A DNA stretch of 64,000 bases from Microbulbifer halophilus (lineage in GTDB: Bacteria > Pseudomonadota > Gammaproteobacteria > Pseudomonadales > Cellvibrionaceae). Positions within the stretch are counted from its first letter, which is position 1, and the number at the start of each line of letters is the position of its first letter. The stretch spans positions 62,001 to 126,000 of the forward strand of contig NZ_JAPIVK010000006.1 of assembly GCF_026183675.1 (NCBI RefSeq). The letters run 5' to 3'. The position numbers were made by a program, and so were the translations under genes. Below the pieces are notes generated by a model. That model was not told the origin of the DNA. It made no database searches and was given only the letters and a program-made list of their open reading frames with translations. Below, piece after piece: positions 35,550-56,768 of the stretch.

Positions 35550-35573
35550 CATCCTCCCCCGAGGGGGTGGATG
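35550..35573. promoter_or_regulatory. MalT-box-like inverted pair (MFS / GH13 divergent promoter)
   Basis: CATCCTCCCCC-GA-GGGGGTGGATG, an almost perfect inverted repeat. The right half ends 19 nt before TAACAT (35593), a -10-like hexamer toward GH13. The left half ends 20 nt before CAGGAT toward the MFS gene. It is related to the sites at 47842, 49648, 51681 and 56744. Confidence 0.6.
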
Positions 35574-35653
35574 CTGCCAGCGCTCACTGCACTAACATGA
35601 AGCTGCCCTGAGCGGCGCTCGATCCCACAATAAATAAAGGCCCGGTCCGCACC

Positions 35654-37579
35654 ATGATCCCGAACTCCCTTCGCCGCCCGACCCGCCGGCTATCAGCGGT
35701 CGATGGCACCATATTCTACCATGCTCGCAGAGTATGTAAGTACCTACTCGCAAGCCTGTTGACCTGCCTACCGCTGGCGGCCCCCGCCGAGTCCATCGAC
35801 CGTGTCGAACCACCTTTCTGGTGGACGGGCATGGCCGAGGAAGAACTGCAGCTGATGGTCCACGGCCGCGATATCGCCGGCCTCGAACCGTCGGTCACCT
35901 ACCCCGGGGTCACCCTGCTGGGAACCGAGACCACCGGCAACGACAACTACCTGTTCATCAACCTGCGCCTGGCGCCGGACACCGAGCCCGGTCGCCTGGA
36001 GATCGCCCTGCGCGACAGCGGCGAGGCGCGGGCGACAATCGAATACCCGCTGAAAGCGCGGGCTCCCGGTTCCGCCGACCGCCGCGGCTTCGATGCCACC
36101 GACGCCATCTACCTGGTCACCCCGGACCGCTTCGCCAACGGCGATACCGCCAACGACAGCACCGCCGACACCCTCGAGGAAGCGGACCGCGACAACCCCG
36201 GCGGCCGCCACGGCGGCGATATCGCCGGTATGCGCAAACACCTGGACTATATCGCCGATATGGGCTTTACCCAGGTGTGGCCCAACCCGCTGGTGGAAAA
36301 TGACCAGCCGGCCTACTCCTACCACGGCTACTCCGCCACCGACTTCTACCGCGTGGACCCGCGCTTCGGCAGCAATGAAGATTTCCGCGAATTCGTCGAC
36401 GCGGCCCGCAAACGGGGCATCGGCGTGATCCAGGACATGGTGCTCAACCATATCGGCAACGGCCACTGGTGGCTGCGCGACCTGCCCGCCGCGAGCTGGC
36501 TGAACGGCGACGGCACCGACAAGGGCGAGTACACACTCACCAACCACAGCCGCACCACACTGGTGGACCCGCACGCGAGTGACAGCGACCGCGCGGCCTT
36601 CGTACAGGGCTGGTTCGTGGACTCGATGCCGGACCTGAACCAACGCAACCCGCTGCTGGCCAACTACCTGGTCCAGAACAGCATCTGGTGGATCGAGTAC
36701 GCCGGCCTGTCCGGTATCCGCGCCGACACCTACGCCTATTCCGACGGCGACTTCCTGCAGCAGTGGGCGGCACGCATCCACCGGGAGTACCCGGATTTCA
36801 ATATCGTCGGCGAGGAGTGGACCCGCAACCCGGCGCTGGTGGCCCACTGGCAGCGCGGCGAAGGCGCACAGGTCAGCGGCGGCCGCCTGAAAAGCATGAT
36901 GGACTTCCCGCTGCACTACGCACTGCGCGAGGGGCTGGCCGAGGAGGACAGCTGGGACAGCGGACTCACGACCCTGTACGAGTCCCTGGCCAACGACTTC
37001 CTCTACCCGCAGCCGCAGCAGCTGGTGATCTTCGGCGGCAACCACGACACCAGCCGCCTGTTCAGCCAGCTCAATGACGACCCCGCGCTGTTCAGGATGG
37101 CGATTGCCTACCTGGCCACGATGCGCGGCATCCCGCAGTTTTTCTACGGCGACGAAGTACTGATGGAAAGCCCAAAGGAACGCAACGACGGTATCGTGCG
37201 CAGTGACTTTCCCGGCGGCTGGGCCGGCGACGATAGCGATGCGTTTACCGGCAAAGGCCTGGGCGGGCACCAACAGCAGGCGCAGGAGACCGTGCGCAAA
37301 TTGTTCCGGTGGCGCCGGCAGGCGCCGGTGATACACAGCGGCAGACTGAAGCACTTCTCGCCGCGGGAGAACACCTACGTTTATTTCCGCTACAACGATA
37401 AAGATGCCGTCATGGTGGCGATCAACAAGGGCAACGAACCCTATCGGCTGCCGCAGGCGCGCTTTGCGGAAGCGCTCGGTGACAGCACAGGGGGCGTCGA
37501 CGTACTGACCGGCGAGCGCCATGCGCTGGAGCAACTGGAGATTCCGGCGCGGGATGTGCTGGTGCTGGAACTGGATTGA
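35654..37579 (+). CDS. GH13 cyclomaltodextrinase/neopullulanase-type amylase, exported
   Basis: A 641-residue GH13 enzyme of the cyclomaltodextrinase/SusA class. It hydrolyses alpha-1,4 links in maltodextrins or cyclodextrins in the periplasm. A long n-region and hydrophobic stretch end at LPLAAPA/ES, followed by an N-terminal beta domain (about 48-135, VEPPFWWTGM…), the catalytic barrel with nucleophile D358 (GIRADTYAY), acid E387 (VGEEW) and D465 (GGNHDTSR), and a C-terminal beta domain ending at residue 641. It is first in a probable operon with the GH31 (74 bases later) and GH13 lipoprotein genes. The start has only a distant AAGG as ribosome-binding site. A MalT-box-like pair lies 81 bases upstream. 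Confidence 0.9.
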   Translation: MIPNSLRRPTRRLSAVDGTIFYHARRVCKYLLASLLTCLPLAAPAESIDRVEPPFWWTGMAEEELQLMVHGRDIAGLEPSVTYPGVTLLGTETTGNDNYLFINLRLAPDTEPGRLEIALRDSGEARATIEYPLKARAPGSADRRGFDATDAIYLVTPDRFANGDTANDSTADTLEEADRDNPGGRHGGDIAGMRKHLDYIADMGFTQVWPNPLVENDQPAYSYHGYSATDFYRVDPRFGSNEDFREFVDAARKRGIGVIQDMVLNHIGNGHWWLRDLPAASWLNGDGTDKGEYTLTNHSRTTLVDPHASDSDRAAFVQGWFVDSMPDLNQRNPLLANYLVQNSIWWIEYAGLSGIRADTYAYSDGDFLQQWAARIHREYPDFNIVGEEWTRNPALVAHWQRGEGAQVSGGRLKSMMDFPLHYALREGLAEEDSWDSGLTTLYESLANDFLYPQPQQLVIFGGNHDTSRLFSQLNDDPALFRMAIAYLATMRGIPQFFYGDEVLMESPKERNDGIVRSDFPGGWAGDDSDAFTGKGLGGHQQQAQETVRKLFRWRRQAPVIHSGRLKHFSPRENTYVYFRYNDKDAVMVAINKGNEPYRLPQARFAEALGDSTGGVDVLTGERHALEQLEIPARDVLVLELD

Positions 37580-37603
37580 TGGGCACCAATCGGGACGGAA
37601 CCT

Positions 37604-37628
37604 GCAGGGTGCGCCCTGCGCACCCTGC
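37604..37628. repeat. GCAGGGTGCG palindrome
   Basis: GCAGGGTGCG-ccctg-CGCACCCTGC, a member of the family at 17451, lies in the short gap between the GH13 and GH31 genes. Without a T-tract it is not an obvious terminator. Confidence 0.65.
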
Positions 37629-37653
37629 AAAACAGACAAGATGTAAAAGAGCG

Positions 37654-40092
37654 ATGACAAACCGAAATACCCTGCTGCGCGGTTTCGCGCTTGTTTTCCT
37701 GTTCTATACCGGCCTCGCCAGCGCCGGCGAAACACGCGAGTACCGGAGCCACCAGCTGGATTCGGGCGCACTGACCATCGCCCTCAGCGACGGCAGCGTT
37801 ACCCTGACGCCACTCAACGACGCCGCACTGGAAGTGCACTACCAGCGCGACGGCCTGAAACAGCTGCCCTCCTTCGCCATCGATAGTGACCGGCCGCAGC
37901 GCACTGCCGCGGCAAAACTCACGGAGGGGCGGGACAGACTGGCCTACAGCCTGCCCGGCCTCACCGCCCTGATCCACAAATCCCCGTTCCGCATCGAATA
38001 CCTCCGCCGCGGGCGGCTGCTGGTCGGTGAGGAAAGCGGCTTTTTCGGTACCGAAACCCTGCGCGGTTTCCGCTTCTCGCTACAGCCGCAGGAGAAACTG
38101 CTCGGCGGCGGCGAGCGGGTGCTGGGCATGGACCGCCGCGGCCAGCGCCTGCCGCTCTACAACAAGGCCCACTACGGCTACACCACCGAATCGAAGCAGA
38201 TGTACTTCGGCCTGCCGGCGGTCATGAGCAGCAACAAATACCTGTTGCTGTTCGACAACAGCGCCAGCGGCGCCATGGACCTGGGCGCCGCTGAGGAGGA
38301 CGTGTTGCAGTTCGAGGCCGCAGCCGGCCGCACCAGCTATATCGTCGTCTCCGGGGACAGCTACCCGGGGCTGATCGAACACTATGTCGACGTAACCGGC
38401 CGCCAACCGCTGCCACCGCGCTGGGCACTGGGCAATTTCGCCTCCCGCTTCGGCTACCGCACAGAGAAAGAAGTGCGGCATACGGTGGAGAAGTTCGCCG
38501 ATGAGGATTTCCCGCTGGACGCGCTGGTGCTGGACCTCTACTGGTTCGGCCCCGATGTCAAAGGCCATATGGGCAACCTGGCCTGGGACAGGAACGCTTT
38601 TCCCGAGCCGGAGAAAATGCTGGCCGACCTGAAGGAGCGCGGTATCCAGACCATCCTGGTTACCGAACCCTTTGTGCTGACCAGCTCCAGACGCTGGGAC
38701 CAGGCCGTGGCCGCAAACGCGCTGGCGAAAAACCTGGCCGGCGAGCCCAAGCGCTTCGACTTCTTTTTTGGCAACACCGGCCTGGTGGATGTATTTTCCG
38801 AAGACGGCCGCGACTGGTTCTGGAATATCTACGACGGCCTCTACCGGCAGGGCGTAGCCGGCTGGTGGGGCGACCTGGGCGAACCGGAAGTGCACCCGGC
38901 CGACACAGTGCACGCCATCGGCACCGCAGACGAAATCCACAATGCCTACGGCCACCGCTGGGCACAGCTACTGTTCGAGCGGCAGAAAGAAAACTATCCC
39001 GAGCGACGCCCGTTCATCATGATGCGCGCCGGTTTCGCCGGCTCCCAGCGTTACGGCATGATTCCCTGGACCGGCGACGTGGCCCGCGACTGGGGCGGTC
39101 TTAAGCCGCAGGTGGAGCTGTCGCTGCAGATGGGCCTGCTGGGTTTCGGCTACACCCACTCCGACCTGGGCGGCTTTGCCGGCGGCGAGGAATTCGATCG
39201 CGAGATGTATATCCGCTGGCTGCAGTACGGCGTCTTCCAACCGGTCTACCGCCCGCACGCACAGGAGGAGATTGCCCCGGAACCGGTATTCCACGACCGC
39301 AGGACCCGCGACATAGTCCGCGACTACATCAAGCTGCGCTACCGCCTGCTGCCCTACAACTACACCCTGGCCTTCGAAAACAGCCAGACCGGCATGCCGC
39401 TGATGCGCCCGCTGTTTTTCGAGAACGAAAAAGAGATCGAGCTGATCGATTACAAGGACGCCTACCTCTGGGGCGACGACTTCCTGGTGGCACCGGTAAC
39501 CGACTCCGGCGTCACGGAGGTTACTGTAAAACTGCCCGGCGGCGTCTGGTTCGATTACTGGAGCGACGAGCCGTACAGCGGCGACACGGCACAGGTGGAT
39601 GTGGACCTCGAAACCATCCCGGTACTGGTACGCGCCGGCGCCTTTATCCCGACCGTCGACCATCTCGACAATACCCGCGATTACTCCAGCGAAACACTGA
39701 ACCTGGACTACTACGCCCACCCGACCGCGGCCAGCTCCAGCGGCCGCATCTACGAAGACGACGGCCAGACCGTCGACGCCTACGGCCGCGGCGAATACCA
39801 GATGCTCGAGTTCAACGCCGAGCGCAGCGCCGATGGAATCGACTTCAGCTTTACCAGCGAGGGCGACGGCTACGATGGCGCACCGGAAGAACGCCATATT
39901 CGCCTGAATATCCACAACTGGAAACCGGCTCCGGCAAGCGTTTCCGTCGACGGACAGCAACTCCGGATACTGGAGCGCGAAAGCGATTTCGAGAAAGCCA
40001 CCCGAGGCGCCTGGCTGGAAAAATCCAGCGGGCAGTTGCATATCAAATTCAACTGGCGCGGCAGGCCGCTGGAGCTGGCCGTCCGGCATTGA
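37654..40092 (+). CDS. GH31 alpha-glucosidase / 4-alpha-glucosyltransferase
   Basis: An 812-residue exported GH31 enzyme (signal peptide to GLASA/GE) acting on maltodextrins. The nucleophile is D407 in GWWGDLGEPE and the acid/base D475 in PWTGDVARDW. FGYTHSDLGGF and the C-terminal beta domains follow. The 68-residue spacing and length agree with C. japonicus Agd31B, a 4-alpha-glucosyltransferase of about 817 residues whose catalytic residues are D412 and D480 as I recall. Orthology is therefore likely, and it may transfer rather than hydrolyse glucose. It lacks the PA14 insert of the xyloglucan GH31 at 7915. The start is ATG 37654 (AAGAGCG upstream, good signal peptide). The open frame from 37576 covers a repeat. 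Confidence 0.9.
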   Translation: MTNRNTLLRGFALVFLFYTGLASAGETREYRSHQLDSGALTIALSDGSVTLTPLNDAALEVHYQRDGLKQLPSFAIDSDRPQRTAAAKLTEGRDRLAYSLPGLTALIHKSPFRIEYLRRGRLLVGEESGFFGTETLRGFRFSLQPQEKLLGGGERVLGMDRRGQRLPLYNKAHYGYTTESKQMYFGLPAVMSSNKYLLLFDNSASGAMDLGAAEEDVLQFEAAAGRTSYIVVSGDSYPGLIEHYVDVTGRQPLPPRWALGNFASRFGYRTEKEVRHTVEKFADEDFPLDALVLDLYWFGPDVKGHMGNLAWDRNAFPEPEKMLADLKERGIQTILVTEPFVLTSSRRWDQAVAANALAKNLAGEPKRFDFFFGNTGLVDVFSEDGRDWFWNIYDGLYRQGVAGWWGDLGEPEVHPADTVHAIGTADEIHNAYGHRWAQLLFERQKENYPERRPFIMMRAGFAGSQRYGMIPWTGDVARDWGGLKPQVELSLQMGLLGFGYTHSDLGGFAGGEEFDREMYIRWLQYGVFQPVYRPHAQEEIAPEPVFHDRRTRDIVRDYIKLRYRLLPYNYTLAFENSQTGMPLMRPLFFENEKEIELIDYKDAYLWGDDFLVAPVTDSGVTEVTVKLPGGVWFDYWSDEPYSGDTAQVDVDLETIPVLVRAGAFIPTVDHLDNTRDYSSETLNLDYYAHPTAASSSGRIYEDDGQTVDAYGRGEYQMLEFNAERSADGIDFSFTSEGDGYDGAPEERHIRLNIHNWKPAPASVSVDGQQLRILERESDFEKATRGAWLEKSSGQLHIKFNWRGRPLELAVRH

Positions 40093-40101
40093 ATACAGGC
40101 C

Positions 40102-40142
40102 GTAGGATGGGCAAAGGAGCGCAGCGACGCGCCCATCCTACA
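40102..40142. repeat. GTAGGATGGGC palindrome
   Basis: GTAGGATGGGC, a 17-base spacer, then GCGCCCATCCTAC. It fills most of the 98-base gap between the GH31 and GH13 genes. Confidence 0.65.
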
Positions 40143-40190
40143 AAACGCACCGCACTGCCGTAGGAGCAGAATTCAAGGGCACAATTACCA

Positions 40191-42035
40191 ATGAAGAAAT
40201 TTCCCCCCCTGATCGCCGCCTTGCTTACCATCGCCACCGGTTGCACTGAAAAAGCCACCGAAGCTGCCGAGCTGGAGCCCGGCACGCCCGGCGAAAAACC
40301 GATCATCTACCAGACCCTGCCGCGCCTGTTCGGCAACACCAACCCCGCCAACAAACCCTGGGGCACCATCGAAGAGAACGGCACGGGCAAGTTCAACGAT
40401 TTCACGCCGGAAGTGCTCGCCGATATCCGCGAGCTGGGGGCCAATTACATCTGGTATACCGGCTCGCTGCATCACGCATTGGTAGGCGACTACACCCAAT
40501 ACGGTATCAGTAACGACGACCCGGACGTGATCAAGGGCCGCGCCGGCTCCCCCTATGCGATCAAGGATTACTACAGCGTCAACCCGGACCTGGCAGAAGA
40601 CCCGGCAAAGCGCCTGGATGAATTCCGCGCGCTGATTCGGCGCAGCCACGCGCAGGGCCTCAAGGTCATCATCGATATCGTCCCCAACCATGTGGCCCGC
40701 GCCTACGAATCACTCGACAAACCGGAGGGGGTTCGGGATTTCGGTGCCACCGACGATACCTCGCTCACCTACGCCCGCGACAACAGTTTCTACTACGTGG
40801 TCGGCGAGGACTTCAAAGTGCCCGAGAGCGACGACTATCGGCCGCTGGGCGGCGAGCCGCACCCGCTGGCGGACGGCGAGTTCGAGGAGAGCCCGGCCAA
40901 GTGGACCGGCAACGGCGCCCGCGCGGCGCAACCGGACATTGACGACTGGTACGAGACGGTCAAGATCAATTTCGGCGTGCGTCCGGACGGCAGCAAGGAC
41001 TTCCCGGAACTGTCTGCGGCGTTCGCGCAGAAAGATTACCGGGTGCACGCCGAATTCTGGTCGGACAAGGATGTACCGGACTCCTGGGAAAAACTCCGCG
41101 ATATCACCCACTACTGGCTCGATTTCGGCGTCGACGGATTCCGCTACGATATGGCCGGCATGGTGCCGGTGGAGTTCTGGAGCTACCTGAACTCCTCCAT
41201 CAAGATGGAGAAGCCGGACACCCTGTTGCTGGCCGAGATCTATACGCCCGAGCGCTACCGCGACTATATCCGGCAGGGCAAGATGGATTACCTCTACGAC
41301 AAGGTGGGCAGCTACGATGCCATCCGCGCAGTACTGGAAGGCGAGGGTAGTACTGACACGGTCGCGGAGGTCCAGCGGAGCCTGCAGGATATCGCCCCGC
41401 ATATGCTGCGCTTTATGGAAAACCACGATGAACAGCGCATCGCCAGCCCGGAGTTCGCCGGCAGCGCCGGGGCCGGCAAACCGGCGATGCTGGTTTCCGC
41501 CACCGTGTCCGCCGCCCCCACGCTGGTCTACTTCGGCCAGGAACTGGGCGAGCCGGCACGCCGGGACGCCGGCTTCGGCAAGGCCAGCCGCACCACCATT
41601 TTCGATTACTGGTCGGTACCGAGTGTACGCCGCTGGCTGCAGGGAGAATCCACCGCGGAGGAAAAGCAACTGCGCGACTTTTACAGTCGCCTTCTGAATT
41701 TTTCCGCCTCGAGCAGCGCCCTGCGCGGTCAATACTTCGACCTGCACCGCTACAACCGCGAGCACAGCGACGGCTACGGCGGGCAACAATTCGCCTTTGC
41801 CCGCTGGGCCGGCGACGAAAAGCTGATGGTGATCGCCAACTTCGGCGACAGGGAAAAGGCTCTGACACTGCGGTTGCCGCCGGCGCTGATGCAGCAGTGG
41901 CAACTCGAAGAAGGTCGTTACGCGCTGACGGATCAGCTGGACACAGCGACCGCAGAGTTATTGTTCGATGAAGAAGAGGGGAAAATCGAGCTGAGGCTGG
42001 CGCCGCAGTCGGGACATATTTTCCGGCTGCAATAG
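40191..42035 (+). CDS. GH13 alpha-amylase family lipoprotein
   Basis: A 614-residue GH13 lipoprotein (lipobox TGC after ALLTIA), probably anchored in the periplasm or on the outer membrane. The barrel has nucleophile D320 (DGFRYDMAG), acid E349 (LLLAEIY) and D413 (MENHDEQR). Around 40-60 it reads IYQTLPRLFGNTN, typical of the Bacteroidetes/Cellvibrio alpha-amylases that follow SusA/GH31-like genes. It degrades maltodextrins to small sugars. The exact product pattern cannot be read from sequence. It is third in the plus-strand operon starting at 35654 and convergent with the TPR gene, 60 bases away. A long insert between the second and third conserved regions (about 195-300) carries two clusters of acidic residues. 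Confidence 0.88.
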   Translation: MKKFPPLIAALLTIATGCTEKATEAAELEPGTPGEKPIIYQTLPRLFGNTNPANKPWGTIEENGTGKFNDFTPEVLADIRELGANYIWYTGSLHHALVGDYTQYGISNDDPDVIKGRAGSPYAIKDYYSVNPDLAEDPAKRLDEFRALIRRSHAQGLKVIIDIVPNHVARAYESLDKPEGVRDFGATDDTSLTYARDNSFYYVVGEDFKVPESDDYRPLGGEPHPLADGEFEESPAKWTGNGARAAQPDIDDWYETVKINFGVRPDGSKDFPELSAAFAQKDYRVHAEFWSDKDVPDSWEKLRDITHYWLDFGVDGFRYDMAGMVPVEFWSYLNSSIKMEKPDTLLLAEIYTPERYRDYIRQGKMDYLYDKVGSYDAIRAVLEGEGSTDTVAEVQRSLQDIAPHMLRFMENHDEQRIASPEFAGSAGAGKPAMLVSATVSAAPTLVYFGQELGEPARRDAGFGKASRTTIFDYWSVPSVRRWLQGESTAEEKQLRDFYSRLLNFSASSSALRGQYFDLHRYNREHSDGYGGQQFAFARWAGDEKLMVIANFGDREKALTLRLPPALMQQWQLEEGRYALTDQLDTATAELLFDEEEGKIELRLAPQSGHIFRLQ

Positions 42036-42095
42036 AGCCGGGACCTTTACGAAAACAACACTCAAACAATCGCCTGCGGTGCGGGCTCTACGGGG

Positions 42096-44582
42096 TCAGT
42101 GATTGAGTGCCAGCCGCTGCGGCAGCGGATTGCGGGCGCGGAATGCGGCCCGGTCTTCGTCGGCGACCTGTTCCAGCAGGTTGCTGTAGAAACGGTTGGC
42201 GCTGGCCCGGGCGGCCAGGTCGGCACGGCCCCGGTGCTGGGACAGCAGGAAGTCCAGGTGCTCGAAGATATAGCTACGCCAGTAGCCGTCCACTTTCTTC
42301 AGTAGCGGCCGTGCCACCGACAGGCTCTGCTGTAGCCCGCTCCAGTCGCCGCGCTGCCGCTGGCGGCGGCACTGCACTTCCAGCCAGCGCAACTGCTCCA
42401 CGGGGTAATCCTCCCACTGCACCTCTTCCAGCGCCGCCTGCCCGTCCAGGCCCAGCTCCACCGCGGCGATGCGCGCGCGCAGCCCCAGCCGGTGCGGCAC
42501 TTCCGGGCCCAATAGCGGATCTAGCTCCCCATGGATTTTTTCCGCGCGCTGAGATTCGCCCCTTTCCCGGGCCAGTTGCAGGCGCAACAACTTTTCCGCC
42601 ACCCGCTGCTCGACACTGCCGTATTCGGCCAGGGGCTTCGCCAGTTCTGTCAGTTGTCGCTCGGCCCGCTGCAACTGCCCCAGGGCCAGGGACAGCTCGG
42701 CGCGCCAGAGATCAAACTCGACGATGCCGCGCCTGTCTCCGCGGCTGTGCATGAATTCGCTCACCGAGTCCCATTTTTCCGACGCGGACCTGAAGCGTCC
42801 CTGCAGAAATGCCAACCGGCCCAGATAGGCGCGAATGACGATTTCGTAATCTTCCAGGTTTTCCCGCCGGGCCAGTTTCTCGCCGGTCCGCAGGGCCCGG
42901 TAGGCTTCCGGCCAGTTGCCACGCTGCAGTTCCAGCTGGGCGATATTCTGCCGCACCTCCACTTCGCCCATGGGGTCGTGGGCTTTTGCAAAATTTTCCC
43001 GGGCGCTGCGCCAGTAGACCATGGAGTGGTCGTAGTCGGACAGCAGGAAGTAGATGAAGCCCACGTTGTTCTGGCTCTCGGCGCGCAGCCAGATATCGTC
43101 CAGGCGCATGCGGATGGAGAGCGCGCTGCGATAGCGCTCCAGTGCATCGCGATAGTGGCCGCGCTCCTCCGCCAGCAGGCCCATCTGGTTGTAGATTTCG
43201 CTCTGTGCCTTTTCGTCCCCAAGGTCCCCGGCCAGGGCCAGCGCCTCGCCCAGTTTCCGTTCCGCGGCCTCGCCCTCACCGCGCATGCTGTGCAGTGTGG
43301 CGAGATTGCCGAGGCTGGTAACCTGGCCGCGCCTGTCGCCCTCGGCGCGTCGCTGTTCCAGGCCCCGGACGTAGTAGTCCCGCGCCTGCTGCAACTGGCC
43401 CAGGCGCTGGTGGGCCACGCCGTAGGCGTTCAGCACATCGCCACGACCGGACAGGTCGCGCAGGCGCTCGTGGGCTTCCAGTGCCCGCGGCAGGTATTCG
43501 TCCAGCGCCCGCTGGCCGCGGCCGGATACGATGGCGGCCTTGGACAGCTCCAGCCAGGCGCGGGCATGTTTCGGGTCCAGCACCACCACCTTCTGCAACT
43601 CCACCAGCGCCTCTTCGAACAGGCCCTGCTCCATCTGCAGTGCGGCCAGCTCCATGCGCGCGCGTGTACGGCCGGGAAAGGTCTCGATCAAGCGGTGCAG
43701 GAAGGTTTCCGCCGCGTCGGCATCCCCCCGCCAGCGGGCGGACAGGGCCTGGGCCCAATAGGCGGTCGCGGAATCCGGGCGGCTGGCTGCGACGGTGTGC
43801 TGCAGGCTGGCTTCGGCTTCCGCGGTATCCCCCTGATCACTGGCGATACGGGCCCGCAGTAGCCAGCCGGGCCCGTAGTCGGGCTGGGATCGCACCAGTT
43901 GGTCGGCAGCGTCGCGCGCCCTCTGTAGCTGCCCCAGTCGATAGGCCTCTTTTGCGCTGGCGAAGCGCTGGGCGTCTGCAGTCCACAGGGGCACCTCCCG
44001 TCCGGAGGTGCCATCGATCTGCAACGCGTCCCCCACCAGGGTGCCGGCCCGCTGGAAGAATGCGGGCAGCGCGTCCGCTGCCAGCCGCTGGTCCGCCAGG
44101 GTCTGCGCGGCGCGATTCGGCGCGTGCAGGCTGCGCAGCTTCAATACAACCCGGTAGTTGTCCCGCACTGGGAAAACCCGGGCCGCGAGCAGGTAGTCGG
44201 CCCCCATCAGTCGGGCGACCTTTGCCGCCTGGCGATCGTCCGCTCCCGGATAGGTCTGCTGGAACAACTGCAGCGCCCTGTTCACATCGCCGGGTTGCAA
44301 CACCCGGATTTTCCGCAGATCCCGCAGCGACTGGTTCAACAGTAGCTGCCCGCCGTCTTCCAACCAGTCGGTATCGCCCGACAGGCCGGACAACTTCACC
44401 GGCAACACCGCGAGAGCGTGCGCAGCGCCCGCGGATGGCGGCTGCGGTGCCGCCGAATCCCGGGTACCGAACAGCCCCAGCAGCACGACGGCGGTGAGCG
44501 CAGAGAAAGTCATCACCAGTCCGCGACGGATGTCGTCACGCGCGAACCGGTCCCCGCCGGTTATCTCGCTCTTCTCGGACAT
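42096..44582 (-). CDS. Membrane-anchored TPR protein with FlgO/TolB-like N-domain
   Basis: An 828-residue protein with a short cytoplasmic start, one membrane helix (about 23-43, VMTFSALTAVVLLGLFG) and a periplasmic part. Residues 55-200 (LAVLPVKLSGLSGDTDWL, then GADYLLAARV) look like the FlgO/TolB-like domain found in CadC-type sensors and adenylate cyclases. From about 215 onward it is made of tetratricopeptide repeats (for example YNQMGLLAEERGHYRDALERY). No winged-helix or cyclase domain is present, so a direct regulator role is not supported. Its ATG overlaps the stop of the upstream gene as TGATG, so the two are translated together. Function unknown. It may scaffold a complex or sense an envelope signal. 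It is unrelated in type to the starch genes around it. Confidence 0.75.
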   Translation of the reverse strand: MSEKSEITGGDRFARDDIRRGLVMTFSALTAVVLLGLFGTRDSAAPQPPSAGAAHALAVLPVKLSGLSGDTDWLEDGGQLLLNQSLRDLRKIRVLQPGDVNRALQLFQQTYPGADDRQAAKVARLMGADYLLAARVFPVRDNYRVVLKLRSLHAPNRAAQTLADQRLAADALPAFFQRAGTLVGDALQIDGTSGREVPLWTADAQRFASAKEAYRLGQLQRARDAADQLVRSQPDYGPGWLLRARIASDQGDTAEAEASLQHTVAASRPDSATAYWAQALSARWRGDADAAETFLHRLIETFPGRTRARMELAALQMEQGLFEEALVELQKVVVLDPKHARAWLELSKAAIVSGRGQRALDEYLPRALEAHERLRDLSGRGDVLNAYGVAHQRLGQLQQARDYYVRGLEQRRAEGDRRGQVTSLGNLATLHSMRGEGEAAERKLGEALALAGDLGDEKAQSEIYNQMGLLAEERGHYRDALERYRSALSIRMRLDDIWLRAESQNNVGFIYFLLSDYDHSMVYWRSARENFAKAHDPMGEVEVRQNIAQLELQRGNWPEAYRALRTGEKLARRENLEDYEIVIRAYLGRLAFLQGRFRSASEKWDSVSEFMHSRGDRRGIVEFDLWRAELSLALGQLQRAERQLTELAKPLAEYGSVEQRVAEKLLRLQLARERGESQRAEKIHGELDPLLGPEVPHRLGLRARIAAVELGLDGQAALEEVQWEDYPVEQLRWLEVQCRRQRQRGDWSGLQQSLSVARPLLKKVDGYWRSYIFEHLDFLLSQHRGRADLAARASANRFYSNLLEQVADEDRAAFRARNPLPQRLALNH

Positions 44583-45547
44583 CAGTCGGGAAGCTCCAGG
44601 CTGAAGATCAGGGTTTGTGCCGACGCGCTGAGTTCGCCGGCGACATTGTCGATATCGCGGCTGGAGCGCCAGATATTGGGAATCCAGTAACCACTGTTCC
44701 TGTCGATGATGGCCAGTGCGGACTCCAGCCTCCGCACGGCCTCGGCATCGTCTTCGAAGGCCCAGGCGCCCTTCGCATAGACCACTTTCAGGTAGAGACT
44801 CCAGTATATCCAGGCCGGCATCTGGCTGCGGAATTCGTGCAGCTTGTCTTGCAGCCGGTAAAATTTGCCGGCGATCACGGTATCTGTCTCCCGCTTGTCC
44901 TCCACTACCAGGAACTCGGAAAACTTGCCCCGCCGGCCGCGACAGCGATAGCTGCCAGAGCCGACATAGGTGGTGATATCGCGGAAGTCCTCGCCCTCGG
45001 AGGCGGCAAACAGGCGCAGCCTTGTGCCCGGTTCGTACTCCAGGTTGTGGGTGTGTAGCTCCAGCTCCACGGTATCGGTGAAGGTGAGGCCGCCGACCGG
45101 CTCTATCCCGATCAGCATCGGGAATTCGGCCGGGGGCAACACCCGGGTGCCAGGCGGCAGACGATGTAGCAGGCTGGGTTCGACAGGATCGAACCGGTCG
45201 ACGGAGAGACCGATATTCTGTTCGGTCAGCCCGAATACCTGGTCGAAGGTAATCAGCAGATCGGACTCTATATCGCCGGGCAGGGAGAGAAAGGCGATCA
45301 CCTGGTTGCCGTCGATCTCCAACTCCACCAGGCCCAACAGGCCCACGTCCAATACCAGATTATCGAGATTGAGGTCGATCAGCCCGGTATTGATTTCGAT
45401 TTTCGTTTTTCTGAGCAGATCCAGCAGACCCGCACTGGCACCGGCGGCCAGCAGTAACAGCAGCAGTCCGCCCAGCAGCCGCGCCTTCAGCGATACCCTC
45501 GTAGCCCGGCGGGATCCATTTCTCCCGGTTTTGCGATATCGCAACAT
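44582..45547 (-). CDS. Exported protein of unknown function coupled to the TPR gene
   Basis: A 321-residue protein I do not recognise. A basic N-terminus and a strong hydrophobic stretch (about 24-40) look like a signal peptide or anchor. The mature part opens with alternating leucine/aspartate strands (TGLIDLNLDNLVLDVGLLGLVEL), then beta-rich sequence with two cysteine-free blocks, and ends in a helical region (about 235-321). It overlaps the TPR gene by TGATG. Because both products should be exported, they may form an envelope complex. There is no link in sequence to carbohydrate use. It begins the two-gene minus-strand unit. I found no clear promoter. Confidence 0.65.
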   Translation of the reverse strand: MLRYRKTGRNGSRRATRVSLKARLLGGLLLLLLAAGASAGLLDLLRKTKIEINTGLIDLNLDNLVLDVGLLGLVELEIDGNQVIAFLSLPGDIESDLLITFDQVFGLTEQNIGLSVDRFDPVEPSLLHRLPPGTRVLPPAEFPMLIGIEPVGGLTFTDTVELELHTHNLEYEPGTRLRLFAASEGEDFRDITTYVGSGSYRCRGRRGKFSEFLVVEDKRETDTVIAGKFYRLQDKLHEFRSQMPAWIYWSLYLKVVYAKGAWAFEDDAEAVRRLESALAIIDRNSGYWIPNIWRSSRDIDNVAGELSASAQTLIFSLELPD

Positions 45548-47841: not shown

Positions 47842-47865
47842 CATCCACCCGCTGTGGGGCGTAGC
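47842..47865. promoter_or_regulatory. MalT-box-like inverted pair before secreted amylase
   Basis: CATCCACCC-gctgt-GGGGCGTAGC. Toward the amylase (minus strand) GGGTGGATG is followed after 21 nt by TAAGCT. It shares the GGGGCGTAGC half with the site at 49648. Confidence 0.5.
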
Positions 47866-47930: not shown

Positions 47931-49583
47931 CTATTCGGCCGGCGCCAGGAGCACCAGTCCGGAGGGCGTATCCAGGCTTACGCGACCGCCCTCGACGACC
48001 GCCGTTTTGCCGGAATAGAAATCCTCCAACCGCGCCCCTTCGGCAAAGGTATCGCCCACGGCAATGGATTTTTCGCCGCGCCCGCTGTCGACAGCAACCA
48101 CCACCGGGGATTCACCGTCCAGCGTGCGGGCAAAGGTATAGGGCTTGTCGGCGATCTTACTGTGTACACCGGCACCCACCGCCGGATGCTCTCGGCGGAA
48201 CTGGCCCAGCTTCTGCCAGTGGGCCAGCAGCTCGCGGGTCTGCGGCTTTTCCAGATCCTGCCAGTTCATCGGGCTGCGCAGCTGGGCGTCGCCGTTGGCG
48301 GATGCGGTCAGGGGGCGGCCCAGTTCGTCGCCGTAGTAGATTTGCGCGGCGCCGGGGGCCAGCATCAGCTTGAACGCGGCCTCCCGCGCATGCTCGCGCT
48401 CGCGGTCGAAGGAGTGCATGTCGTCGTGCGAAGTCAGGTAGTTGAGCACGCTGACGCCATCGAGCGCACCGCCGTGCAGGCTGTCCGAGTAGCTGGAGAA
48501 GATACTTTCCATATCTTCGCCGGCGCGCTGGACCAGGTCGAAGTTGATCAGGCTGTCGAAGCCGTAGTCGAAGAAATCCACTCGGCGATCGCCGAAGTCG
48601 TACTCGCGGCCCTCGCTCGCTCCGAAATCGTTGATGCCGTAGCCATAGACTTCACCGACCATATAAAAATCGCGATCGTCGAGCTTTTTATCGGGGTTTT
48701 CCGCTTTCCACTGTGCCAGCGCATGACTTGCCTCTTTCTTGAGTTCCGCCCAGGCCCGCGGCTCCACATGCTTGGTGGTATCCACGCGGAAGCCGTCCAC
48801 ACCGTATTCCCACACCCAGTCGGTCGTCCACTTGATCAGGTAGTATCTCGGCGTGCGCGGATAGCCGGTGCGCTCGAAAAATGTATCCAGTTCCGCCCGC
48901 TCCTGTGCCAGGCGCCCCTCTTCGCGCCATTTTTCAACCAGTTGCGGCGGCAGCGATACCGGCTCTTCACTCTCTGTGCGGATATCCGGCAGGTTCTCCA
49001 CCAGAGTGCAGCGCACTGTGCCGGCGAATCCGGTCCAGTCGCAGACCGGTCCGGGCCTGACCCAGGACTCGGGCCACAGCGGATCCTTTTCGGTCACCGG
49101 GCCGGTGTGGTTGATGACCACATCCAGTAGCACCCGGATTCCACGGCGGTGGGCGGTATCGATCAGTTCGGCCAGGTCGGCCTCAGTGCCGAAGTTCCTG
49201 TCGACTCCAGTCCAGTCACGGGGCCAGTAGCCGTGGTAGGGATAGGTGAGGCCCGTGCCCTCGTCGGTGGCGCCTTCAATCTGTTCGTATACCGGCGACA
49301 TCCACAGGGCGTCCACGCCCAGGTCACTGAAGTAGCCCTCCTCGAGCTTGTCGATCACGCCGCGCAGGTCGCCGCCGGTGAAACTGCGCAGCCGGGCTCC
49401 GTCGCGCCCGCGGCCGTAGCTGAGGTCGTTGTCCGGATCGCCGTTGCGAAAGCGGTCCGGCAACATGAAATAGATGGTGGCATTGGACCAGAAACTGTCG
49501 CCGGGCTGTGGATCGGCAACGGTGGTGTCGGTACAGGCGCTGATTCCCAGCATGGCAATCAGGCTCGCGGCGATGCGTTTCAT
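47931..49583 (-). CDS. GH13 alpha-amylase lipoprotein, MalS-like
   Basis: A 550-residue lipoprotein (lipobox ISAC) of GH13, resembling periplasmic alpha-amylases of the MalS type. It has [16 protein letters not shown] at the N-terminus of the barrel, [13 protein letters not shown], nucleophile D268 ([10 protein letters not shown]), acid E311 (VGEVYG) and D387 (SHDDMHS), and a C-terminal beta domain ending VLLAPAE. Large insert loops (about 170-255) precede the nucleophile. It trims maltodextrins for uptake. The start is ATG 49583 with GAGAATAAA upstream. The longer frame to 49652 runs into the regulatory site. It is transcribed alone, with a terminator after and a MalT-box-like pair 65 bases before. 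Confidence 0.9.
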
Positions 49584-49647: not shown

Positions 49648-49674
49648 CACATCCTCCAGGCCGGGGGCGTAGCG
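49648..49674. promoter_or_regulatory. MalT-box-like pair before MalS-like amylase
   Basis: CATCCTCCAGG-cc-GGGGGCGTAGC. On the minus strand GGAGGATG is followed after 19 nt by TAGAGT, a -10-like hexamer, then the amylase start. Confidence 0.55.
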
Positions 49675-51629: not shown

Positions 51630-51680
51630 TCGACTGAGCTGCAAGCCAACCGGCCGCCGGCCCTGTCCGGCGGCCACCCC

Positions 51681-51708
51681 CCACCCTACTCCCCACAAGG
51701 GGCTGACG
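51681..51708 (+). promoter_or_regulatory. MalT-box-like pair before GH13 at 51888
   Basis: CCCTACTCCCC-acaa-GGGGCTGACG. The reverse of the left half, GGGGAGTAGG, is one base off the E. coli MalT box GGGGA(T/G)GAGG. The right half is followed after 20 nt by GATACT. The gene starts 180 bases downstream. Confidence 0.45.
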
Positions 51709-51887
51709 CGGTAGTCGGCCTACCATTGGATACTGGAAAACTATCGTCACCGGTACCTCTGGAGGTCAGCACCGTGAGAACCGCAACCCCGCTCGGCATT
51801 TATTTGCCGCCGAAACCCCGCCCCTGCACAACTCCCGCACCCTTGTAAGTTGTACATTGACACAGGCTGATACAAGAGAAGCTCAAC

Positions 51888-53738
51888 ATGAAGAATATTA
51901 ACCGGCTTGCGACAATCGCCCTGTCCTCCGCGATGCTCAGTGGCCCCACGGTTTCCAGCGCCCAGGACGGCGAGGAATTCGTGCCGCAATGGGCGAAGCG
52001 GGCCGTCTGGTACCAGATTTTCCCCGAACGCTTCCGCAATGGCGACCCTTCCAACGACCCGAAAATGAAGGATATTCTCGGCGCCGATCCGCAGGAGCCG
52101 CCCAGGGAATGGCAGATTCACCCTTGGGGTAGCGACTGGTACCGGTTGCAACCCTACGAACAAGCCAATGACGAGCGGGAACTCTGGAAGCACCTGTTGC
52201 GGCGCCGCTATGGCGGCGACCTTCAGGGAATCATCGATCAGCTCGACTATGTGAGCGACCTAGGCATCAATGCCATTTACCTGAATCCCGTCTTCGACTC
52301 GCCGTCGCTGCATAAGTACGACGGCGCCAGCTACCACCATATCGACCCCAATTTCGGGCCGGACCCCGAAGGCGACCGGAAATTGATGGCCGAGGAGAAC
52401 CCGCAGGATCCTTCCAGCTGGGTCTGGACCAGGGCCGATGAACTGGCGCTGAAGCTGATTGACGAAGCCCATGAACGCGGTATCAGGATCATATTCGACG
52501 GCGTATTCAATCATATGGGCACCAATAGTTTTGCCTTCCAGAACCTGCTCGAGTACCAGGAAGAGTCGCCCTACAAAGACTGGTTTACGGTCGAGTCCTT
52601 CCGCAATGAACGCAAGGGGACGAAATTCAGGTACTCCGGCTGGTTCGGCGTGGAGTCCCTGCCCGAGTTCAAGGAGGATGAAAACGGCCTGGTAGAGGGA
52701 CCGAGAAACTATGTATTTGCCGCTACCCGGCGCTGGATGAACCCGATGGGCAAGGGTGTCGGGCACGGCATTGACGGCTGGCGGCTGGATGTCGCCTACG
52801 ACGTTCACCACAATTTCTGGAAGGCCTGGCGCAACCACGTAAAATCGATCAATCCCGAGGCCTATCTGACCGCAGAGATCGTCGACGAGCCGGAAACAGT
52901 AAAACCCTACTTCCAGGGCGACGAATTCGACGGCGAGATGAATTACAACTTTGCCTTCGCCGCTGCCGAGTTCTTCTTCAATCCCACAGACACAGACATC
53001 AGCGTCAGCGAGTTCAACCGGAAACTGGCGGATCTCCGGGGGCTCTATCCACAGGGCGTGGCTTACGTCGTGCAGAACCTGTTTGGAAGCCACGACGCCA
53101 ACCGGATTGGCTCGCATATCGTCAATCGCGGAATCGGCAACTTCCGGGACTGGGGGGATTACTTTACCAAGTCACAGGTTACCAACAACCCCGACTACTC
53201 TGTGCGCAAACCCAACCGGCATGAGATTCAGTTGCAAAAACTCTTTGCCATCTTCCAGATGACCTACGTGGGCGCGCCGATGATCTACTACGGCGACGAA
53301 GTGGGCATGTGGGGTGCAAATGACCCGGATTCACGCAAACCGATGATCTGGTCCGATATCGAGTATGAAGACGAAGTCTACATGCCCGACGGCAGTACGC
53401 GATCCCCCGACAAAGTGGCTGTCAATACGGGTCTGCTATCCCACTACCGGGCTTTGATTCGGGTTCGCAACCGAAATCCGGCGCTGCAACTGGGTGATTT
53501 CGAGCCGGTACTGATCGACGATGAGCGCCAGCTCTACGGCTATCAGCGCACCTATCGCGACAACCGGGCCCTGGTCATACTGAACAACTCCCCCCGGGAA
53601 AAGGCCGTTTCGACAGCAATACTGGGAGACTCGCGCTGGCGCGATGTACTGAATGAAAAGGGACAGGCTTTCGACCACCAGCCCAACGATATGGCAATCG
53701 ATGCACGGGATGGACTGATCCTGATCAGGGAGCGGTAG
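51888..53738 (+). CDS. GH13 alpha-glucosidase/neopullulanase-like, exported
   Basis: A 616-residue GH13 enzyme with a signal peptide ending VSSAQ/DG. It shows WYQIFPERFRNGDPSNDP, YGGDLQGIIDQLDYVSDLG, nucleophile D301 (DGWRLDVAYD), acid E330 (LTAEIVDEP) and D403 (GSHDANR), then a short C-terminal beta domain (DDERQLYGYQRTY). The WQIHPWGSDWYRLQ insert near 73-90 is typical of periplasmic maltodextrin glucosidases/neopullulanases in this bacterial group. It probably makes glucose from short maltodextrins, feeding glucokinase at 57142. A terminator shared with the convergent TonB receptor gene follows at 53837-53875. Confidence 0.9.
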   Translation: MKNINRLATIALSSAMLSGPTVSSAQDGEEFVPQWAKRAVWYQIFPERFRNGDPSNDPKMKDILGADPQEPPREWQIHPWGSDWYRLQPYEQANDERELWKHLLRRRYGGDLQGIIDQLDYVSDLGINAIYLNPVFDSPSLHKYDGASYHHIDPNFGPDPEGDRKLMAEENPQDPSSWVWTRADELALKLIDEAHERGIRIIFDGVFNHMGTNSFAFQNLLEYQEESPYKDWFTVESFRNERKGTKFRYSGWFGVESLPEFKEDENGLVEGPRNYVFAATRRWMNPMGKGVGHGIDGWRLDVAYDVHHNFWKAWRNHVKSINPEAYLTAEIVDEPETVKPYFQGDEFDGEMNYNFAFAAAEFFFNPTDTDISVSEFNRKLADLRGLYPQGVAYVVQNLFGSHDANRIGSHIVNRGIGNFRDWGDYFTKSQVTNNPDYSVRKPNRHEIQLQKLFAIFQMTYVGAPMIYYGDEVGMWGANDPDSRKPMIWSDIEYEDEVYMPDGSTRSPDKVAVNTGLLSHYRALIRVRNRNPALQLGDFEPVLIDDERQLYGYQRTYRDNRALVILNNSPREKAVSTAILGDSRWRDVLNEKGQAFDHQPNDMAIDARDGLILIRER

Positions 53739-53836
53739 CCCGGTCCGGCCTGTTTGAAACAGCCGCTTGATGGCGAAGAGATGGTTCGATCCTGAATAGA
53801 AGTGCAGCTGTCATTTTCGCAATCCTCGCGATCGAC

Positions 53837-53875
53837 AAAAAAACCCCTGCAATACGGAATTGCAGGGGTCTTTTA
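53837..53875. terminator. Bidirectional rho-independent terminator
   Basis: AAAAAAACCCCTGCAAT-acgg-AATTGCAGGGGTCTTTTAT, an 11-bp stem with A-tract and T-tract, between the convergent GH13 and TonB receptor genes. Confidence 0.9.
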
Positions 53876-53897
53876 TCTGCGAGACTAGCTGGCGGAA

Positions 53898-56681
53898 TTA
53901 CAGCTCGTAGCTGAAGCCCAACAGGTAAGTCTTGCCGTAGCTCTGGTAGTCGCGTACCTGGAGCTCATTGTCGCCACTCAGGGTGGTGAAGGGTTCGTCA
54001 GTCAGGTTGATTCCCTGCAGATAGACGGACAGCCCCTCAAGGCCGGAGATACCGGCATCGGTAAAGTCGTAACCGAGCTGGGCGTCGACAATGGTTTCAC
54101 CCAGTACATCCACCTGCTCGGTATTAAAGCCGAGACCGTAGACATCGCCCTTGAAGTCGGAACGCTTGCGCACGCTGGTGCGGGCGGAGAAACCATGGTT
54201 CTCGTAGTACAGGGTCAGGGTTTCGATACGGTCGGACAGTCCCGGCAGTTCGAACTCGTTGTCGTTCTGGTCCTCGATATCGGAACTCACGCCGGTGTGG
54301 CTGGCCAGCAGGCCGAAACCATCCAGGCTCTCGGAGAAGGCGTTGAATGGCAGGGTCACAGACAGCTCGTAACCCTGCAGGGTACCGCCGCCGGCGTTGA
54401 TCTTGCCATAGGCAGTGGCTGTGGAATTCTCCGGCACTTCCCCGGTGGACGGATCCGCCACACCCGTCAGCTCAACCTGATAGTTGTCGTCAAAGTGCCA
54501 GTTGCTCAGATCCTTCCAGAAAAGAGCGGCCGAGAAGTAACCTTCGTCGCTGAAGTAGTTTTCGTAGGAGAGGTCGACACCGACCGCCTCCTTCGGCTCC
54601 AGCGTCGGGTTGCCGCCACTAATTACCCAGTTGTTGCCATTCGTATCCGGCGTCTGGTTGTAATTCACTTCCAGGGACGCGTTCATTTCATCCATGCGCG
54701 CGCGGGAAATGGTTTTTGCCGCACCGAAGCGCAGGGTCTGCTGGTCGTCGATCTCCAACGCCAGGTTCAGGCTCGGCAACAGCCGGCCGTAATCATGACC
54801 GAGTTTGGTCGGCGTGGCGACGACCAGGCCCTCTTCGGTGGTCTGGCCGGCATGGCCCCTGGACTGCTGTTCGGTGTAGACGTAGCGCAGCCCGGCATTG
54901 CCGGAAAGCGGCAGCCCCGCCACCTGGGTTTCAAAGCCTGCCTGCGCAAACGCAGCGGTCACTTCTTCGCTGACACTGTAGGACTTTGTCAGGTGGTCGA
55001 TCCCGGTGAGCGACTCGTCCAGCAGGTTGTAGTAACCGTCGTTCATCATTGCTGCGGCGTCGTAGGCGATCATGTCGCCCATGCCGATAAAGTCCAGGGA
55101 AGCCGTACCCAGACGGTAGTCCTCCGGCACTTCCAGCATCTCCGGGAAGTCCGTCAGAGTCATGTAGTAACCGCCGGACTGCTTGGTCTTGGTGCGATCG
55201 CGGTAGGAAACGCCGTAGTTGATTTCGTTGACTAAGCCCAGATCCACCATCTGGCTGGCGGCGAGTTTGATCGTGGTCAGCTCGTCATCGATAGTCGGCG
55301 TATTGAGGAAGCCGTCCTGTGCGGTATTCTCGCCTGCTGTACCGGTCAGGTTGTAGTAATCGTTCAACGCGGAGCTGGCACCCCAAGACAGCGGACCACC
55401 TAGCTGGATCAGATCCCAATCACTGTAGTCCAGTTCGTGGTCGAATTTGGCGCCGGTGTTGCCTCCGTCAAAGGTATAGGTGAGGTCTTCGGCAATACCT
55501 TCGTTATCACCGCGGCCAGTGCCGGAGTAACTCTCGAAGCTCCAGATATCCCGCTCGACAGTTGAATGGCTGGCATCGAACTCCAACTGGAAAGTGTCGC
55601 TGAAATCGTACTTGGTATTGAAACCGAAGGATCCCAGCTCGGCCTGGCGAGTTTCCAGGTCGTTACGCACAACGACGCGTTGGTCTTCCACGGTACCGCT
55701 GCTGACAAAGCCGGACGCTTCGTCGATTTCGTTGGCACTGACAGGACCCTGCCCCCAGGCCATCGGAACCTCGATACCACGCAGGATCTTCTCGTCATTG
55801 AAGTCCACGTAGAGGGCATCGAAAGTGGTGTGCAGCTTGTCGTTGGGCTGCAGTTCCACTACCAGCATGGCGCTGTCGCGTTCCAGTACGGAGGAGCGTA
55901 CAAAGGGCTTGGCCCCACCCAGTACAGAGTAATCTTCCAGCCCCGGCGTGTCTGTGCGATAGCCCCACGTATTCCAGCGCTCTTCCTGGTTCGGGGAGCT
56001 CATGGTGTTGTAGGCGAAAGCTACACCGATAGTGTCGTCGGCGAACTGGTCGATATAGGAGAAGGTGGCGCGATGACCGCTATCTTCGCCGTCCGGATTC
56101 AGCTTGTCGAAACCAGTCTGCTCCAGCTGCCCATTGAACTTGACCACACGCTCGCCACGCTCCAGCGGTTTGACGGTCTGCATGTCGATCACGCCGGCAA
56201 TACCTTCTGCCTCGATATTGGCCTGCGGCGTTTTATAGACAGTGACACCACTCATGATCTCTGAGGGATAGAGATCGAACTCTACGCCGCGGTTATCGCC
56301 AATGGAAACCTGCTCGCGGCCATTGAAGGTGGTGGCACTCTCGTTTTCACCAAAACCGCGGATGGTCACCCGACTGGCGCGACCATCCAGACGCTGGGTG
56401 GCGAGCCCCGGCAGGCGCGAGATGGACTCGGCGATGGAGGAATCCGGCAGCTTGCCGATATCCTCGGCGGAGATAGCCTCAACCACGGCCTTGGCGTCGC
56501 GTTTGGTGTCGATGGAGTCCATCACACTCTTGCGGAAGCCGGTGACAGTTACCTCTTCAAGTGTATTGGAGACGCCCTCTTCTGCGGCGAAAGCCGGCAG
56601 CGAAACACTCACGGCTGCTACCGCAGCGGACAGCAAAGTGGGCCGGAAGGCCCCCTTACCTTTATAGGATTGACTCATCAT
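53898..56681 (-). CDS. TonB-dependent receptor for maltodextrins (MalA-like)
   Basis: A 927-residue outer-membrane receptor. It has a signal peptide ending LPAFA/AE (about 32), a TonB box LEEVTVTG at 41-48, a plug (IGKLPDSSIAESISRLPGL, RASRVTIRGFGENESATTFNGRE, NIEAEGIAGVIDMQT) and a barrel ending in LLGFSYEL. It belongs to the same broad class as the receptor at 2964 but is clearly a different clade. Its place among amylases fits uptake of maltodextrins, like Caulobacter MalA. Translation may start at either of two adjacent ATGs (56681 or 56678) after GGGAGAAG. A MalT-box-like inverted pair lies 63 bases upstream with TAGGAT 20 nt from it. Confidence 0.93.
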   Translation of the reverse strand: MMSQSYKGKGAFRPTLLSAAVAAVSVSLPAFAAEEGVSNTLEEVTVTGFRKSVMDSIDTKRDAKAVVEAISAEDIGKLPDSSIAESISRLPGLATQRLDGRASRVTIRGFGENESATTFNGREQVSIGDNRGVEFDLYPSEIMSGVTVYKTPQANIEAEGIAGVIDMQTVKPLERGERVVKFNGQLEQTGFDKLNPDGEDSGHRATFSYIDQFADDTIGVAFAYNTMSSPNQEERWNTWGYRTDTPGLEDYSVLGGAKPFVRSSVLERDSAMLVVELQPNDKLHTTFDALYVDFNDEKILRGIEVPMAWGQGPVSANEIDEASGFVSSGTVEDQRVVVRNDLETRQAELGSFGFNTKYDFSDTFQLEFDASHSTVERDIWSFESYSGTGRGDNEGIAEDLTYTFDGGNTGAKFDHELDYSDWDLIQLGGPLSWGASSALNDYYNLTGTAGENTAQDGFLNTPTIDDELTTIKLAASQMVDLGLVNEINYGVSYRDRTKTKQSGGYYMTLTDFPEMLEVPEDYRLGTASLDFIGMGDMIAYDAAAMMNDGYYNLLDESLTGIDHLTKSYSVSEEVTAAFAQAGFETQVAGLPLSGNAGLRYVYTEQQSRGHAGQTTEEGLVVATPTKLGHDYGRLLPSLNLALEIDDQQTLRFGAAKTISRARMDEMNASLEVNYNQTPDTNGNNWVISGGNPTLEPKEAVGVDLSYENYFSDEGYFSAALFWKDLSNWHFDDNYQVELTGVADPSTGEVPENSTATAYGKINAGGGTLQGYELSVTLPFNAFSESLDGFGLLASHTGVSSDIEDQNDNEFELPGLSDRIETLTLYYENHGFSARTSVRKRSDFKGDVYGLGFNTEQVDVLGETIVDAQLGYDFTDAGISGLEGLSVYLQGINLTDEPFTTLSGDNELQVRDYQSYGKTYLLGFSYEL

Positions 56682-56743
56682 CTTCTCCCTGGATTTATCG
56701 TTATGGTGAGTAGTTGCATCCTATGAGCGCCTATCATCCATAA

Positions 56744-56768
56744 CATCCTCCCCCCGAGGGGGAGGAGG
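56744..56768 (-). promoter_or_regulatory. MalT-box-like inverted pair before the maltodextrin receptor
   Basis: CATCCTCCCCCC-ga-GGGGGAGGAGG. The right half contains a full E. coli MalT box, GGGGAGGAGG. Toward the receptor (minus strand) GGGGGAGGATG is followed after 20 nt by TAGGAT. Confidence 0.65.

Follow-up and report, generated by a model that had tools for sequence, protein, structure and literature searches.

Five inverted pairs of GGGG-type boxes in a starch-use locus of Microbulbifer halophilus most probably serve as operators for MalT, a STAND activator that responds to maltotriose and whose gene lies elsewhere in the genome. The locus lies in a 64-kb window, the whole stretch of DNA analyzed, and is best read as part of a predicted MalT regulon that governs starch use of the TonB/MFS type through compact head-to-head boxes separated by 4–5 bp. 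MalT is a textbook STAND activator, a class that also includes apoptosome and NLR-type switches, and has been studied mostly in E. coli. The central idea of the original prediction, that the sites are MalT boxes at a fixed distance from −10 sequences, is supported by the presence of MalT in the genome, by the co-occurrence of MalT and boxes over 66 promoters, and by a spacing of 19–20 nt.

All five inverted pairs were confirmed in the window sequence (Table 1). The pairs were re-read in a common 10-bp register, which shifted the start coordinates of two sites by 2–4 bases; in this register the gap between the halves is 4 or 5 bp, so the pairing originally described stands while its spacing of 2–5 bases does not. 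The half-site consensus proposed at the time has exceptions in CGGGTGGATG (47842), CTGGAGGATG (49650), and GGGGCTGACG (51685). Family matches to GH13, GH31, a TonB receptor, and a sugar transporter identify genes for maltodextrin use at the locus. The longest open reading frame of the GH13 gene at 47931–49583 extends across the 49650 site, to 49652. Inside the starch locus, the interval 42096–45547 (−) encodes an 828-aa TPR protein adjoining a DUF6689 protein; by eye it is likely to have one membrane segment, and its weak similarity to the MalT TPR region is below the curated cut-off.

Table 1. Box pairs, −10-like hexamers, and genes of the starch locus, with the pair of the malT promoter (positions in the window unless a contig is named).
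Feature	Position	Strand	Remarks
Inverted MalT box pair	35550–35573		CATCCTCCCC-N4-GGGGTGGATG; flanked by genes for MFS sugar transporter (−) and cyclomaltodextrinase-like enzyme (+)
Inverted MalT box pair	47842–47865	−	CATCCACCCG-N4-GGGGCGTAGC; upstream of GH13 gene 45748–47742
Inverted MalT box pair	49650–49673	−	CATCCTCCAG-N4-GGGGCGTAGC; upstream of GH13 gene 47931–49583
Inverted MalT box pair	51685–51708	+	CCTACTCCCC-N4-GGGGCTGACG; upstream of GH13 gene 51888–53738
Inverted MalT box pair	56744–56768	−	CATCCTCCCC-N5-GGGGAGGAGG; upstream of TonB-dependent receptor gene
Third box	56769–56778		CGGGAGAAGC; direct repeat with distal box of 56744, abutting
−10-like TAACAT	35593–35598	+	Cyclomaltodextrinase side, 19 nt from box; not conserved in 5 homologues
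−10-like CAGGAT	35524–35529	−	MFS side, 20 nt from box; match averaged over 5 homologues peaks at this offset
−10-like TAGGAT	56718–56723	−	20 nt from 56744 box; match averaged over 26 other genomes peaks at this offset
MFS sugar transporter	33936–35495	−	GPH sucrose-like; below curated cut-off of that model
Cyclomaltodextrinase-like GH13	35654–37579	+	Followed by GH31 (37576–40092) and GH13 (40191–42035)
Alpha-amylase family protein (GH13)	45748–47742	−	
Alpha-amylase family protein (GH13)	47931–49583	−	Start chosen by eye at ATG 49583
Cyclomaltodextrinase/maltodextrin glucosidase-like GH13	51888–53738	+	
TonB-dependent receptor (TonB-Xanth-Caul subfamily)	53898–56681	−	NCBIfam 564 bits, cut-off 310
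Inverted pair in own malT promoter	C28:52744–52767		Genome of the window (G000)

The distances from box to hexamer are 19 (TAACAT), 20 (CAGGAT), 21 (TAAGCT), 19 (TAGAGT), 20 (GATACT), and 20 nt (TAGGAT), and these hexamers agree with TATAAT at only 3–4 of 6 positions. Among homologous promoters, TATAAT-like matches peak at offset 20 for the receptor gene (26 genomes), at 20 for the MFS gene (5), and at 19 for the GH13 gene (16), with a mean match of 3.6–4.0 at the peak versus 1.3–1.4 over all offsets. The fixed distance is therefore conserved, at 19–20 nt, in the receptor, MFS, and GH13 promoter sets. In MalT-dependent promoters, the proximal MalT box lies near −38. The pair at 35550 had been assigned to two divergent promoters: this was upheld on the MFS side, where a hexamer lies at 20 nt in 5/5 homologues, and is weaker than proposed on the cyclomaltodextrinase side, where the five homologues have no common −10-like hexamer and TAACAT at 19 nt is found in the window itself.

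Conservation was assessed in 144 genomes of the family, 69 of which contain the receptor gene (33 with MalT and 36 without). MalT occurs in 49 of the 144, namely 47 members of the genus together with G007 and G113. Assessable receptor promoters of MalT-bearing genomes have a pair scoring 18–20 of 20 in 31 of 32 cases, versus 0 of 34 in MalT-less genomes, where none exceeded 16, the level of shuffled sequence (Fisher p = 5e-18, uncorrected for shared ancestry). The MalT-bearing set leaves out L035 (G081) because its contig ends before the promoter; the MalT-less set leaves out G018 and G028, whose best matches are partial, and counts L039 (G126) as MalT-less. Second copies of the receptor gene in 7 genomes were left out of these counts. 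Since 47 of the 49 MalT genomes belong to one genus, the co-occurrence is close to a single evolutionary event. The one exception, M. harenosus (G078), has MalT and no pair at its receptor gene, and strong pairs at its malT promoter and at a nearby amylase gene.

The other promoters were compared with homologue sets drawn from 20 genomes (GH13, MFS, and cyclomaltodextrinase), scored, like the receptor promoters, with a consensus that came from the window and was then applied elsewhere. A pair scoring at least 17/20 lies upstream of 16 of 17 homologues of the GH13 gene 47931–49583 (gap 1–5, mostly 4), of all five MFS homologues (37–39% identical; one not beside a cyclomaltodextrinase gene), and of five of six cyclomaltodextrinase homologues; the sixth is from G126, a genome without MalT. 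Among shuffled 660-bp promoters, individual ones scored as high as 17/20, and once 18/20, so scores of 17 in these smaller sets are modest evidence. The GH13 gene 45748–47742 has three matches, two of which (L058 and L059), beginning at residue 476, could not be assessed; the 47842 pair is the same in the sole assessable homologue, L051, which is also the sole homologue available for the 51685 pair and has the same pair there. The third box, at gap 0, is conserved over 27 aligned receptor promoters (mean score −3.3 versus −18.7 for background). This distal direct-repeat box is clear at the receptor promoter only, the other promoter sets having the pair alone.

The sites were also scored with a half-site matrix built solely from promoters of other genomes. 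The test is not fully independent, because the half-sites were first picked with the window-derived consensus. The scores were 31.1 (56744), 28.1 (35550), 21.6 (51685), 18.0 (47842), and 12.5 (49650), and the first four of these rank above all other independent inverted pairs in the window. When the window was dinucleotide-shuffled 60 times, the top inverted pair (gap 2–6) had a mean score of 13.0 and a maximum of 20.1; 56744, 35550, and 51685 therefore beat every shuffle, whereas 47842 is over the shuffle mean and under the maximum, and 49650 on its own is within shuffle noise. A pair at 43721 (score 14.3), chance-like and inside a coding region, was dropped, as was one at C33:167157 (score 13.0), taken as noise. 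Further candidate pairs considered elsewhere in the genome were C13:27872 and C28:38387.

Across the whole genome (4.66 Mb), the strict pattern matches only 35550 and 56744, with 0 matches in the control. Allowing up to 2 mismatches at gap 4 or 5 gave 8 places, 4 of them in the starch locus and 1 in the malT promoter (the controls are not split by mismatch number). At up to 3 mismatches noise dominates, with 30 matches versus 17 in the control for gap 4 and 17 versus 36 for gap 5. A strict E. coli-box palindrome pattern gave 0 matches, and a 44-nt stretch of the window had no match in E. coli genomes. Could the pairs be chance matches in G/C-rich DNA? The control counts at 3 mismatches, of the same order as the real ones and higher for gap 5, speak for this, as does the standing of 49650 by itself. 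Conservation is, however, a stronger test of the sites than matrix score. Sequence, place, and spacing are conserved in homologous promoters for 56744, 35550, and 49650, which is not the pattern of a motif scattered at random through GC-rich intergenic DNA; for 47842 and 51685, conservation rests on one homologue each. We give a chance origin almost no credence.

That the inverted repeats form RNA hairpins, as terminators or attenuators, rather than protein sites is similarly far-fetched. The pair at 35550 is a near-perfect palindrome and that at 56744 is close to one, which speaks for a hairpin, yet the repeats lie upstream of a conserved −10-like hexamer and no T-run follows either site. Furthermore, the halves in GH13 homologues are conserved without being complementary (CTACGCCCC with CGGGAGGATG).

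The preferred reading, MalT operators, calls for a MalT in the genome, and one was found on another contig (C28). It matches NF003420 at 874.5 bits (cut-off 537) and contains a STAND ATPase (PF13401), TPR_MalT (PF17874), and a LuxR HTH (PF00196). Both solved MalT structures, 8bob and 1hz4, are matched, and the protein is about 36–37% identical to E. coli MalT over its full length, so that nearly two thirds of the residues differ. The HTH is closer, with 37/58 identical residues and 13/16 in the recognition region (APSTIKTHIRSLYQKL versus AATTIKTHIRNLYQKL). Among named MalT proteins, that of M. litoralis is the nearest, at 90% identity. The protein is otherwise rare: among 369 genomes drawn across the class, only 2 have it at E 1e-150, the window's own and G508. 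The earlier statement that no malT gene is nearby is correct for the window, but in 8 of 31 MalT-bearing genomes malT lies 22.7–33.5 kb from the receptor gene. The two genes share a contig in 23 of these 31, which are all of the 33 genomes except G000 and G081.

The genome also encodes a second MalT-like STAND protein (L002; G000:C39:20654–23023, −) of 838 aa with a MalT TPR region, which scores 290.7 bits. The existence of this protein raises the alternative that a different LuxR/STAND-type activator binds the sites. We regard this as very unlikely: a Pfam scan found no LuxR HTH in the second protein, its match ends at model position 787, and the boxes equal those of E. coli MalT, whose HTH is closely conserved in the MalT of C28. 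In E. coli, MalK inhibits MalT. Such regulation is not expected here because MalF was not found in the window's genome at E 1e-10. A MalF-like permease match is present in 30 of 48 genomes of the genus (e.g., G088:C9:68998–69648); its distance to the receptor gene, 2.3 kb in G088, often ranges from a few kb to tens of kb.

The box arrangement was then compared with four promoters of E. coli K-12, malP, malK, malS, and malE, which we take to be MalT-dependent; the box consensus, which we assume to be of the GGGGA(T/G)GAGG type, was checked against these four regions. Arrangements were read from the MG1655 sequence by consensus scan rather than from experimental site data. The inverted pairing had been described as a departure from the usual direct repeats of MalT promoters, a contrast that the scan does not sustain: the proximal box is inverted relative to the next one in malP (gap 2) and, with a gap of 14 in both, in malK and malS, the malS boxes being weak. 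In malE the boxes point in the same direction, and GGGGCGTAGG upstream of this gene equals the variant at 47842 and 49650.

The malK promoter bears a close likeness to the receptor promoter, with abutting leftward boxes CGGGAGGATG and GGGGAGGAGG followed by a rightward GGGGTGGAGG. The malP promoter resembles the receptor promoter in its left-left-right boxes, its inverted proximal box, and a hexamer (CAAACT) 20 nt from that box; it differs in its gap (2 versus 4–5), in having two leftward boxes 24 bp apart, and in controlling maltodextrin phosphorylase. The malS promoter resembles the window sites in having one inverted pair, with 2–3 mismatches per box, and a hexamer (CAAACT) at 20 nt, while malK has ACGCAT at this distance, a poor −10 match. 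Unlike the window pairs, malK and malS have an inverted gap of 14, about one helical turn longer, and serve an ABC importer or an amylase. At 26 named Microbulbifer malT loci, 44 inverted pairs scored above 18, compared with 12 everted and 4 direct ones; of the inverted pairs, 36 have a gap of 4 or 5. In G508, an order-level relative with MalT, a gap-2 inverted pair lies upstream of a gene reading like malE, and an additional leftward box was seen by eye. G113 has only weak gap-13 pairs near malT (15.0 and 16.2); its MalT homologue, L166 (G113:C11), lies beside GH127 and sugar transporter genes, and the genome also has a LacI orthologue. Taken together, the E. coli scan and the Microbulbifer loci indicate that known MalT promoters have the inverted arrangement too and that the near-uniform gap of 4–5 bp is a lineage trait. 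A literature search found nothing on MalT boxes with direct and inverted repeats together.

The malT promoter itself carries a pair scoring at least 18 in 17 of 30 cases, 12 of them at gap 4; loci were available for 30 of the 49 malT genes, and all 30 were counted. G007 has no pair at this promoter. Because the same pair recurs in many species, self-activation of malT is likely on the sequence evidence. In 16 of these 17 promoters, the best −10 (CATAAT or TACAAT) is found 33 nt from the box rather than at 20 nt, and in the remaining one the distance is 30 nt. All but one of the 17 have a weaker hexamer, NANNCT, at 20 nt (CACACT in 8), which resembles the CAAACT of E. coli malP and malS. Possibly malT has two starts, one MalT-dependent at 20 nt and one basal at 33 nt. 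On the malT side of the E. coli malP–malT region, the consensus scan found no box with up to 2 mismatches, and to our knowledge E. coli malT is not autoregulated.

A possible pair (G000:C18:19435–19458) also lies 157 nt upstream of a phosphofructokinase gene. The gene is present in 48 genomes; of 30 homologous Microbulbifer promoters, 8 score at least 17, one of these elsewhere with gap 3. In 12 of the 30 a best gap-4 pair lies at 143–160 nt, and a thirteenth has it at 224 nt; many score only 16–17, and the 16 of several is the shuffle level. Phosphofructokinase as an additional MalT target is thus suggestive only.

In related genera the receptor promoter looks different. The LacI-type palindrome TGNATACGTATNCA matches at 13/14 or better in 28 of 34 MalT-less receptor promoters versus 0 of 32 MalT-bearing ones, where the match is at most 11/14. 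A LacI group with 52–91% mutual identity (11 examined) occurs in 57 of 144 family genomes and in 33 of the 34 MalT-less genomes with the receptor, all except G124; in 14 of the 34, its gene and the receptor gene are no more than 8 kb apart. We infer that this LacI binds the TGAATACGTATGCA-like palindrome. At E 1e-85, neither the genus of the window nor G007 yielded the orthologue; among the 49 MalT genomes, G113 alone has it too. A literature search found nothing on the palindrome TGCATACGTATGCA.

Operators of a LacI-family repressor must accordingly be weighed for the window as well. A Shewanella study (PMC2996990) predicts that a LacI-type MalR controls the TonB receptor locus corresponding to this one; the Mal pathway described there likewise relies on a TonB-dependent receptor, a symporter, and amylases instead of MalEFGK, and differs in its LacI-type regulator, “MalT” being a transporter name in that work (PMC2996990). 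A LacI gene also adjoins the locus inside the window (31686–32723, −). It sits beside genes for a dehydratase, an FAA-hydrolase family protein, a sugar transporter, and an SDR, which is probably a separate sugar-acid cluster. Against a repressor stand the dissimilarity of the relatives' palindrome to the GGGG boxes, its absence from all 32 MalT-bearing promoters together with the lack of the orthologue in the genus at E 1e-85, and the place of the pair upstream of the −10, an activator position. We therefore consider LacI operators in the window to be a slim prospect.

G126 is an instructive case. Its receptor (L039, G126:C4) is 74% identical to that of the window, versus 43% for its genus mates G127 and G128, whereas its promoter and signal-peptide region match G127/G128 at 77–83%; similarity turns Microbulbifer-type just after. 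The gene looks like a chimera, a natural promoter swap that placed a Microbulbifer-type receptor behind the LacI-type promoter and signal peptide of its own lineage: promoter type here follows the resident regulator, not the receptor gene. Given that MalT-less relatives carry the LacI-type palindrome in the receptor promoter, it appears that in this clade MalT has taken the place of a LacI-type regulator. No work joining Microbulbifer, MalT, LacI, and TonB-dependent was found in a literature search.

In the mechanism that we propose for MalT control, starch fragments would enter via the TonB receptor and the MFS transporter, and maltotriose would activate MalT. MalT multimers would bind both halves of a pair cooperatively, and the proximal subunit would recruit RNA polymerase; at the receptor promoter, the third box gives a left-left-right array like that of E. 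coli malK. A broader proposal, to which we assign a little less than an even chance, is that starch use in Microbulbifer was rewired, a LacI-type regulator giving way to a self-amplifying MalT switch that acts on a minimal head-to-head two-box operator with a 4–5 bp gap.

These results predict part of the starch regulon for a genus studied for its polysaccharide-degrading enzymes, and the contrast across genomes with and without MalT is clear. The locus points to a regulator change in polysaccharide uptake, with a LacI-type palindrome before this kind of receptor gene in one set of genera and MalT boxes in another. As a well-delimited second regulon with short two-box operators in many sequenced species, it offers material on how MalT multimers read the orientation and spacing of their boxes.
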